A DNA stretch of 64,000 nucleotides from Chryseobacterium sp. RU37D (GTDB lineage Bacteria > Bacteroidota > Bacteroidia > Flavobacteriales > Weeksellaceae), in assembly GCF_900156075.1 (NCBI RefSeq), contig NZ_FTMM01000006.1, forward strand, positions 62,001 through 126,000, given 5' to 3'. Numbering within the stretch: position 1 is the stretch's first letter; each line of letters opens with the position of its first letter. The translations under genes were made by a program, and so were the position numbers. This document shows, one piece after another, positions 8,175 to 11,103 of the stretch. The notes beneath the pieces were generated by a model. It made no database searches, had not been told where the DNA came from, and saw only the letters and a list, made by a program, of their open reading frames with translations.

Positions 8175-8918
8175 TTAATTTAAAAGCCAGTCGTACCCCT
8201 TTTCTTCAAGTTCTAAAGCAAGAGATTTGTCACCGGTTTTGATGATTTTTCCGTTTGCCAAAACGTGAACGAAGTCAGGTTGAATATAATTAAGCAATCT
8301 CTGATAGTGGGTAATCAAAAGAACTGCATTTCCTTCATTTTTGAAAGCATTTACACCGTCTGCGACGATTCTCAATGCATCAATATCCAATCCTGAATCT
8401 GTTTCATCAAGAATAGCCAATTTCGGATCCAGCATCATCATTTGGAAAATTTCATTTCTTTTCTTTTCACCTCCCGAAAAACCTTCGTTCAATGATCTTG
8501 AAAGGAAATCTTTTTTAATACCCAATTGCTCAGATTTTTCACGGATTAAAGCCAGCATTTCTTTTGCAGGCATATCTTCCAAGCCGTTTGCTTTTCTGTT
8601 TTCGTTCATCGCAGCTTTGATGAAGTTTGTCACAGAAACCCCCGGAATTTCTACAGGATATTGAAAAGAAAGGAAAATCCCTTTGTGTGCTCTTTCTTCA
8701 GGAGCATCTTCGATGATATCTTCGCCTCTGAAAATGATTTCTCCATCAGTAATTTCATAATCTTCTTTTCCTGCGATAACAGAAGAAAGAGTAGATTTAC
8801 CGGCTCCGTTCGGCCCCATGATAGCGTGAACTTCTCCCGGCTTTATTTCAAGATTGATACCTTTTAAAATTTCTGCGCCGTCTTCAATTTTGGCGTGCAA
8901 GTTTTTTATATTTAACAT
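8175..8918 (-). CDS. sufC: Fe-S cluster assembly ATPase SufC
   Basis: ABC-type ATPase of the SufBCD scaffold complex; it is cytoplasmic and soluble. The 247 residues include Walker A (GPNGAGKST, about residue 36), the Q-loop (SFQYPVEIPGVS), the signature LNEGFSGGEKKRNE and Walker B (LAILDETDSGLDID). The H-loop (LLITHYQRLL) is also present. SufC has no membrane partner in this family. It sits between the GxxExxY gene and sufD. Confidence 0.97.
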   Translation of the reverse strand: MLNIKNLHAKIEDGAEILKGINLEIKPGEVHAIMGPNGAGKSTLSSVIAGKEDYEITDGEIIFRGEDIIEDAPEERAHKGIFLSFQYPVEIPGVSVTNFIKAAMNENRKANGLEDMPAKEMLALIREKSEQLGIKKDFLSRSLNEGFSGGEKKRNEIFQMMMLDPKLAILDETDSGLDIDALRIVADGVNAFKNEGNAVLLITHYQRLLNYIQPDFVHVLANGKIIKTGDKSLALELEEKGYDWLLN

Positions 8919-9030
8919 ACATTCAAATTTATCGCAAGGTCAAACTTTGAGTATATCCTTTGTAACACTAAACCACAATTAACAAAGGCATCAACGCTAG
9001 CGAATGAAATATTATTTTTTAATTTTTATT

Positions 9031-9050
9031 TTAAACATTAAGAATTTAAG
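9031..9050. repeat. Left direct repeat flanking the GxxExxY gene
   Basis: A 20-bp sequence starting TTAAACATTAAG matches 9598-9618 except for a single inserted base in the right copy. The two copies bracket the GxxExxY gene. Confidence 0.65.
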
Positions 9051-9150
9051 TTAATTCTAATGTATAATTTCTTTTTAAGCAAATCAATAAATTGATTTTA
9101 ATTAAGATATTTAAGGTCTTTGTAATTCTTAATTCCTGAATATTTAAAAG

Positions 9151-9555
9151 TCATTCAGGAAGTTTTGCAAAATATTCATTTATTAAAGGAACTGTCGATT
9201 TTGTGATATTATCCGTGTAAAAATTAATTAAAAGACCTTGAGGCTTTTTCAAAATTTTCATATATGTCATCAATTGAGCCTGATGAACCGGCAATAAACT
9301 TTCAACAGTTTTGATCTCTATAACAATTGTTTTATTCACTAATAAATCAACTTTTAACGGAGTTTCAATCTCAATTTTTCCATAATTGATTTTGGTGCTA
9401 ATTTGTTGATCAACTAAAAATCCCTTTTCTCTTAATTCATATGCTAAACACATTTCATAAACACTTTCCAGCAAGCCAGGCCCTAGTTCTTTGTGAACTC
9501 TAATGGCGCATCCTACAATATCATAGGAAAGTTGTGTTACTTGTGCTTTTGTCAT
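9151..9555 (-). CDS. GxxExxY protein (PD-(D/E)XK nuclease-like)
   Basis: This 134-residue protein has the family-naming motif GLLESVY near residue 26. It also has a nuclease-like core: Asp in VDLL and EIK in VIEIKTVE, then VHQAQLMTYMKIL. The fold belongs to the PD-(D/E)XK nuclease group, but no biochemical function is established for the family. It is oddly placed, splitting sufB from sufC on the same strand, and its flanks carry a near-identical 20/21-bp direct repeat. I read it as an inserted accessory gene; a role in Fe-S assembly is unlikely. Confidence 0.9.
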   Translation of the reverse strand: MTKAQVTQLSYDIVGCAIRVHKELGPGLLESVYEMCLAYELREKGFLVDQQISTKINYGKIEIETPLKVDLLVNKTIVIEIKTVESLLPVHQAQLMTYMKILKKPQGLLINFYTDNITKSTVPLINEYFAKLPE

Positions 9556-9597
9556 CTTAATTTTCTTAAAAAGAATTGATTCATCAATTCCTTAATA

Positions 9598-9618
9598 TTA
9601 AACATGTAAGAATTTAAG
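9598..9618. repeat. Right direct repeat flanking the GxxExxY gene
   Basis: Matches 9031-9050 with one extra G. A degenerate inverted copy (read on the minus strand as TAAACATTAAGGAATTAAG) lies close by at about 9629-9647. Confidence 0.65.
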
Positions 9619-9654
9619 AGAATAAAAACTTAATTCCTTAATGTTTAAAATATA

Positions 9655-11103
9655 TTAACCCACAGAACCTTCTAATGAAATTTCAAGTAATTTCTGAGCT
9701 TCAATAGCAAACTCCATTGGTAATTTATTCAAAACTTCTTTACTGAAACCGTTTACGATCAAAGCGATTGCTCTTTCCGTATCGATTCCTCTTTGGTTGC
9801 AGTAGAAAATCTGATCTTCCCCGATTTTTGAAGTCGTAGCCTCGTGCTCCAATTGTGCAGAAGGATCTTTGATTTCAATGTAAGGGAAAGTATGTGCTCC
9901 ACATTCATTACCCATTAGCAAAGAGTCACACTGAGAGAAGTTTCTCGCTCCTTTTGCAGTCGGCATTACTTTTACCAGACCTCTGTATGAATTCTGAGAT
10001 TTTCCTGCAGAAATACCTTTAGAAATAATCGTAGATTTCGTATTCTTTCCGATGTGGATCATTTTTGTTCCTGTATCTGCATATTGGTGATTGTTCGTTA
10101 CAGCGATAGAGTAGAACTCACCGATTGAGTTATCACCTTTTAAGATACAAGACGGATATTTCCAAGTTACAGCAGAGCCTGTTTCGACTTGTGTCCAGGA
10201 GATTTTTGCATTTCTTTCGCAAAGTCCTCTTTTCGTTACGAAATTGAAAACTCCACCTTTTCCTTCCTCATTTCCCGGATACCAGTTTTGTACGGTTGAA
10301 TATTTAATTTCAGCATTATCCATTGCGATCAGCTCAACAACCGCAGCGTGAAGCTGGTTTTCATCTCTCGACGGTGCTGTACAGCCTTCAAGATAAGAAA
10401 CATAACTTCCTTCGTCTGCAATAACAAGCGTTCTTTCAAACTGACCTGTTCCTGCCTGGTTGATACGGAAATAAGTAGACAATTCCATCGGGCATCTTAC
10501 ACCTTTTGGAATGTAGCAGAAACTTCCGTCAGAAAACACTGCGGAATTCAAAGCTGCATAGAAATTATCCCCTCTGGGAACTACTTTCCCAATATATTTT
10601 CTTACTAAATCCGGGTGGTTTTTAATGGCCTCAGAAATGGAGCAGAAAATAATCCCTTTTTCCGCCAATGTATCCTGGAATGTGGTTTTTACTGAAACAG
10701 AGTCCATTACAATATCCACCGCTACTCCAGAAAGTCTTTTCTGCTCTTCGATATTGATCCCTAATTTTTCAAAAGTTTTGATTAGTTCAGGATCAACTTC
10801 GTCCAGACTGGCCAGCTCAGGCTTTACTTTCGGTGCTGCATAATATCTGATGGCTTGAAAATCCGGTTTTTCATATTTAATGTTTGCCCATTCCGGTTCT
10901 ACCATTTTCAACCAGATTCTGAAAGATTCCAAGCGCCATTCTGTCATCCATTCAGGCTCTTCTTTTTTAGCAGAAATCGCACGGATAACATCTTCATTTA
11001 AACCCGTCGGGAAATCTTCGTAATCTATTTTAGTTTCCCAGCCGAATTCATATTTTTTATTTTCTAGATCGACTCTTAGATCGTCTTCAGTATATTTACT
11101 CAT
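9655..11103 (-). CDS. sufB: Fe-S cluster assembly protein SufB
   Basis: Core scaffold subunit on which Suf clusters are built. The 482-residue protein is very typical of the family. It shows [16 protein letters not shown], the [18 protein letters not shown] block, and [22 protein letters not shown]. It also has [17 protein letters not shown] and the C-terminal [19 protein letters not shown]. It is the second gene of the suf cluster after the A-type carrier. A GxxExxY gene separates it from sufC. Confidence 0.97.

Follow-up and report, generated by a model that had tools for sequence, protein, structure and literature searches.

The window, the whole 64-kb stretch of DNA analysed here, carries sufB (11103-9655; TIGR01980, NF008773), a GxxExxY gene (9555-9151) and sufC (8918-8175; TIGR01978) in that order on the minus strand, as identified by ORF calls and profile searches. 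The GxxExxY gene encodes 134 aa and matches TIGR04256 (E=1.2e-39; 135.3 bits, cut-off 35) and PF13366 PDDEXK_3 (E=1.5e-37). The preliminary description had reported a same-strand GxxExxY gene between sufB and sufC flanked by a repeat of about 20 bp, and both were found as claimed. The direct repeat, TTAAACAT(G)TAAGAATTTAAG, lies at 9031-9050 and 9598-9618. Inverted-repeat searches and shuffle tests revealed a longer inverted pair of 26 bp, 92 % complementary, with one arm on the sufC side (9027-9052, plus strand; TATTTTAAACATTAAGAATTTAAGTT) and the other on the sufB side (9627-9652; TATTTTAAACATTAAGGAATTAAGTT as read on the minus strand). Together with the predicted RNA fold, these termini delimit a minus-strand unit of 626 bp, arm to arm, at 9027-9652, displacing the borders of 9051-9618 originally proposed. 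The sufC-side arm matches the sufB-side end both directly and inversely because the latter is a small palindrome, whose inner half (9598-9618, plus strand, also seen by reading the sequence) supplies the second copy of the direct repeat; a target-site duplication was rejected as the origin of the direct repeat for this reason. Two inner hairpins were seen in the sequence, namely AAATCAAT/ATTGATTT at 9081-9098, which is common to the short dispersed elements described below, and GAATTGAT/ATCAATTC at 9573-9590 on the start-codon side, with another inverted pair nearby. Directly upstream of sufC (8927-9013, minus strand), the right end of another, S-type GxxExxY unit has been left behind, identified by eye from its match to the right terminal repeat that intact S-type units carry at this junction elsewhere in the genus. 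An Rfam search at 8800-9800 gave no match.

Shuffling the two spacers equalled the direct match in 20 of 2000 trials and the inverted match in 15 of 2000, so each repeat, taken by itself, departs only modestly from what AT-rich spacers give by chance. The repeats at sufB-sufC are nonetheless more than chance, because the arm pattern recurs in both window and genome. Five matches to AACATTAAGRANTTAAG (≤2 mismatches) were present in the 64-kb window against 0.30 expected, and TTAAACATTAAGAATTTAAG (≤3 mismatches) had 23 matches in the whole genome against six for the reversed control, several of them forming facing pairs about 100 bp apart. The repeat thus also occurs elsewhere, in support of the initial interpretation, and the refuting possibility of random AT-rich text was not borne out, given recurrence above the control.

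sufB was found in 148 of 148 genomes of the genus, and all 148 junctions were read. An orthologue of the window gene (82-100 % identity) was present in 15, broken remnants in two (G003 and G004), a different GxxExxY lineage in 17 and no GxxExxY gene in 114, a count that includes G075, whose sufC start was not reached. The gene is therefore not in the same place in all relatives; its presence throughout had initially been named as an argument against insertion. The proposed insertion between duplicated ends survives in part: a flanked unit exists and those 114 sites lack the gene, but the ends are inverted, not direct. Members of the other lineage share 33-42 % identity with the window protein and have their own inverted ends of about 90 bp; four of the 17 genes aligned in two pieces, consistent with frameshifts. 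S-type units, whose ends measure about 90 bp, fill the entire spacer, and the S-type right end persists upstream of sufC in many genomes, the window included. A same-strand ORF of about 500 bp, GNAT acetyltransferase-like by eye, occupies the spacer in many relatives (L070, L071, L073, L074, L080, L081, L083-L085 and others).

Among 143 junctions read, 15 without a GxxExxY gene keep at least one arm of the window type (A-type), and five of these keep both. They include solo palindromes (G076, G039 and G019) and entire units devoid of the gene (G129 and G107), which look like deletion products; at those arm-bearing sites, 'empty' consequently means lost, whilst other gene-less sites may be either lost or never occupied ones. 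Deletion scars, in the form of a palindrome or a partial gene, were seen at several gene-less sites. Gene-bearing units yielded no resolvable target-site duplication; at sufB-sufC, the spacers are too divergent for one to be made out.

The tree of the 15 gene copies and the rpoB tree had their main groups in common by eye, with the window genome (G000) placed differently. The GxxExxY gene displayed a dN/dS of 0.059 at a median dS of 0.92 (91 pairs of 14 genes, G014 being left out for length), compared with 0.015 for sufB. With a branching broadly like that of rpoB and a dN/dS of about 0.06, the sufB-sufC copy is old, inherited and maintained. A recent copy-in was rejected on the broad agreement with rpoB, which was judged by eye and not by a formal congruence test, and on the deletion scars at several gene-less sites.

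A bracket test was applied to GxxExxY loci across the phylum, in which the 200 bp upstream of each gene was compared with the reverse complement of the 200 bp downstream (60 shuffles each, threshold z>4). The 113 loci comprised 80 from named genomes, 30 from a phylum-wide draw and three of the window genome; three lacked 200-bp flanks, leaving 110 testable. Brackets were identified around 93 of the 110 GxxExxY genes but around only 3 of 247 ORFs neighbouring them. By group, they were found at 3/3 loci of the window genome, 9/10 A-type loci, 58/67 loci of other close relatives and 23/30 of the phylum draw, with 17 genes lacking a bracket at this threshold. The 80 named-genome loci are not 80 independent cases because they represent ten contexts only, whereas the phylum draw holds one locus per genome. 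Under a cross-locus null, only 18 of 109 loci exceeded the 99th percentile; this null is inflated because related loci share arms, and the per-locus shuffles and neighbouring ORFs were used after it. RAYT-like (Y1) genes of the window genome served as a positive control and were bracketed in four of four cases. In four paralogue-rich genomes, 18 of 25 GxxExxY genes were bracketed, each with its own word (28 of 30 loci entered, two partial ones being left out; three were too short, and the phylum draw had already included two of the 25). Units in these genomes measured about 440-760 bp. Paralogues within one genome shared at most 75 % DNA identity, so no recent burst is seen. Of 247 genomes sampled across the phylum, 122 had a GxxExxY match; phage records yielded no match to the protein and plasmid records eight, all below 60 % identity. 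Four-helix-bundle (TIGR02436) genes were also bracketed at z>4 in 13 of 30 loci (L320-L349), with iterated arms of other words such as AGTATCAAGAT, and brackets are therefore not unique to the GxxExxY nuclease.

The arms follow a common design of approximately 7-mers repeated every 8-14 bases. The words differ by lineage: ACATTAAG.AATTAAG in the window type, ACCATTAAG in the 65 % relatives and CGCAAAGGCGC in L002, with ACCACAGAGG.ACACAGAG and CACGGAG or CACAGAT in other families. The L002-type arm had no match within the window. Across 39 arms we counted 208 near-repeats of 7-mers against 19.1 in shuffled sequences (shuffle maximum 59), and 26 of the arms exceeded 95 % of their own shuffles. 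The A/P subfamily was found in ten unrelated contexts, seven with a TTTAAAC(C)ATTAAG-type bracket, two without a bracket and one not testable; the same kind of arm around the gene in seven of ten unrelated contexts indicates that gene and arms move together. In P-type units, the arm provides the upstream gene with its final codons and stop. A/P-type units were co-directional with both neighbours at 73 of 75 loci (75 of 80 had both neighbours). Outside this group co-directionality was weak (23/29 and 16/23, against 24/39 controls), leaving insertion solely into co-directional operons unsupported as a general rule.

Short elements with the same arms but no gene are dispersed in carrier genomes and follow the gene. 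The exact A-type arm pattern was present in 40 of 148 genomes, with the control near zero and up to 25 dispersed arms per genome. At least five arms, a count that includes the unit's own two, were carried by 14 of 15 carriers of the gene and 5 of 128 non-carriers in the sufB tree, and phylogenetic generalized least squares (PGLS) on that tree gave a slope of 2.07 +/- 0.17 for arm count against gene (p=8e-24; 143 genomes). Phylogenetic regression on an independent rpoB tree of 29 genomes (30 asked for, G039 being without a match) gave a slope of 1.46 (p=6e-4). The 143-genome test is less biased because the rpoB set was chosen around carriers, but the sufB tree adjoins the gene and five of the 148 genomes are absent from it. 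Gene presence and arm number are linked, yet the gene need not have moved every copy. Five genomes (G115, G001, G076, G074 and G065) have 5-21 arms without an A-type gene at sufB-sufC, and G079 has the gene and two arms only. G115 (21 arms) and G001 (14 arms) carry an S-type gene at sufB-sufC instead of the A-type; their arms are possibly orphaned repeats after gene loss.

The short elements share the layout of the gene-bearing ends, minus the gene, and gene-less derivatives also lie in place at sufB-sufC in G129 and G107. Among the matches listed, the full-length short element of the window genome has relatives in the same genomes (28 genomes). Copies in the window genome, G115, G076 and G074 are divergent palindromic elements of about 110 bp. 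In G071, G062, G141 and G047 (L190-L208), an A-type core lies inside a MITE of about 270 bp whose outer ends are different (GGATCAATTTCAAAACTTGGGGAG); at L197, reading by eye showed an apparent duplication of 8 bp (ATTATTTT). In G033 (L350-L358, L400), a 212-bp non-coding element with an A-type arm and the end AGAGCCTGTTTAAATTTACC was near-identical in 9 of 10 copies read. The location of arms inside ordinary MITEs in two lineages indicates that the copies there spread by ordinary transposition. The 212-bp element of G033 is a recently active MITE.

The spacer between rfbB and rfbA (names assigned by eye) was compared with that of 28 relatives. In the window genome it is 350 bp long and holds a short A-type element (G000:C41:123700-124900, L405). 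Among the relatives (L447-L474), the spacer was a clean 24-37 bp in 18 and 92 bp in one; G143 and G045 had a third GxxExxY lineage there, G001 a four-helix-bundle gene and six others a further ORF. By eye, the 350-bp spacer looks in its outer portions like the ends of the G143 unit, so the short element seems to sit in the remains of an older unit. This spacer is a second insertion hot spot besides sufB-sufC.

Across 61 members of the protein family, D70 and K82 were invariant and E80, Q94 and Y98 were conserved in at least 90 %. At the sequence level, the residues of a putative PD-(D/E)XK/RecB-type site are thus conserved, corresponding to the D, ExK and QxxxY motifs of Cas4/RecB-type enzymes. 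A structure model (pLDDT 96.2) had as its best PDB structural match SSO0001 (E=8.4e-5), a Cas4 protein; further matches included AdnAB, lambda exonuclease and others at E≥0.01. These matches place the protein in the RecB/Cas4 branch of PD-(D/E)XK nucleases. A PDB sequence search returned one weak match only (4qe0, E=0.81). Pfam matches of the window protein were limited to PF13366 and Cas4, the latter below the gathering cut-off (21.5 vs 22.7 bits), with no HUH/Y1 transposase (PF01797). PADLOC returned weak Cas4 matches. The window protein has two cysteines only.

The inverted-repeat architecture around most sampled GxxExxY genes suggests that they belong to an element, selfish or domesticated, of a type that is little known. 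The sufB-sufC unit may well be a compact REPtron-like unit, comprising a small PD-(D/E)XK (RecB/Cas4-like) nuclease gene, arms of iterated words of about 7 bp and dispersed gene-less copies of its ends, a reading that we hold about as strongly as we doubt it. It builds on what was observed, namely the brackets, iterated arms that have spread together with the gene to unrelated loci, the joint occurrence of the gene and dispersed arms, the conservation of residues of catalytic type and long purifying selection, and adds that the GxxExxY protein would act on, move or process the repeats. The protein would recognize its own arms, either as DNA or as single-strand hairpins, and the putative nuclease would cut there; cutting might then enable low-rate copying of the unit or its short derivatives into the spacers of operons. 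The sufB-sufC copy would be an old inherited insertion that recombination or deletion between its palindromes has removed on repeated occasions. The suggestion that the gene spreads as a passenger is not favoured, since arms accompany it at unrelated loci and it is under strong purifying selection. More tentatively, and with doubt outweighing belief, GxxExxY genes across Bacteroidetes could form the autonomous core of a distinct class of elements bracketed by repeats, in which a small RecB/Cas4-like nuclease with its own iterated arm word places copies of itself or of short derivatives in operon spacers; a sister class with the same layout and a different protein would then be made up of four-helix-bundle genes.

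Ranked second, after the REPtron-like unit, is an RNA element like the intervening sequences (IVS) of 23S rRNA, whose terminal stem would be cut from the mRNA by RNase III, explaining its persistence in operons, with the protein poorly expressed or an accessory passenger. The RNA fold predicted for the unit joins its two ends in a long stem that encloses the ORF (z=-4.55, 20 shuffles), and the 28-bp terminal stem of the Coxiella IVS, which encodes S23p, is cut by RNase III (PMC4990558). The co-directionality of A/P-type units and the bracketed four-helix-bundle genes, one of which occupies the same rfbB-rfbA spacer in G001, point the same way. However, arms of A-type units paired no better within loci than across them (7028 of 20000 permutations reached the observed value), S-type arms being marginal (1067 of 20000), so compensatory pairing was unsupported and the arms are conserved as sequence, not only as pairs. 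The weak co-directionality outside the A/P group and the strong purifying selection on the protein also count against an RNA element, which we consider unlikely.

Rather improbable is a passenger gene caught between two IS-end or MITE copies and moved by a transposase encoded elsewhere. The presence of the same arms inside ordinary MITEs in two lineages is consistent with such capture, but inspection by eye found none of those MITEs' outer ends at sufB-sufC, and brackets also surround GxxExxY genes of lineages whose arm words are unrelated. The four RAYT-like genes of the window genome have different palindromes, and these Y1/RAYT genes were accordingly rejected as movers of A-type arms. Each of the four (L186-L189) has its own palindromes. 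Least probable of all is an ordinary cellular gene, for example for DNA repair or defence, with incidental terminators or REP-type spacers as flanking palindromes, for although long maintenance in one operon under purifying selection and the weak PADLOC Cas4 matches would suit it, presence is patchy, several unrelated GxxExxY lineages share one spacer, the same arms recur at unrelated loci and the bracket rate far exceeds that of neighbouring ORFs.

GxxExxY proteins are commonly annotated but lack an assigned function. The passage found on them in the literature searched concerns neither function nor repeats, a search for PDDEXK_3 gave no match, and neither PF13366 nor TIGR04256 was among the matches listed for these accessions and related terms. 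If the REPtron-like reading is correct and the protein acts on its arms, the family would gain a function and a second, unrelated enzyme class would join the domesticated repeat-moving systems known from RAYTs. As each GxxExxY gene has its own arm word, recognition is testable pair by pair.

Compared with known systems, the GxxExxY protein resembles Cas4/RecB-type nucleases in fold and residues but is shorter, falls below the Pfam Cas4 cut-off and, in the window, has just the two cysteines. Inverted termini and dispersed non-autonomous copies are shared with MITEs and IS elements; unlike these, the unit lacks a transposase, has no resolved target-site duplication and is an old inherited copy. 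As in the 23S rRNA IVS (PMC4990558), a single small gene lies in a sporadically occurring unit with complementary ends. In contrast to that IVS, the unit sits in the protein operon sufB-sufC and not in rRNA, has no Rfam match, encodes a nuclease-fold family under strong selection and has A-type arms that pair without co-variation. RAYT/REP systems comprise a palindrome-bordered gene that is vertically inherited and maintained, with repeats commoner in genomes that have the gene (PMC8049555, PMC8266576). The GxxExxY gene is likewise bordered by cognate palindromes, inherited and maintained, and its dispersed repeats are commoner where the gene is present, with the caveat that some copies are MITE-borne. 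It differs in that its arms are iterated 7-mers (approximately) bracketing the gene, with dispersed arms numbering at most 25 per genome and not hundreds, and in that its enzyme is a PD-(D/E)XK nuclease and not HUH/Y1, the four Y1 genes of the genome lying elsewhere. On account of this enzyme, we do not class the GxxExxY system as a RAYT, though REPtrons are its closest counterpart in organization.
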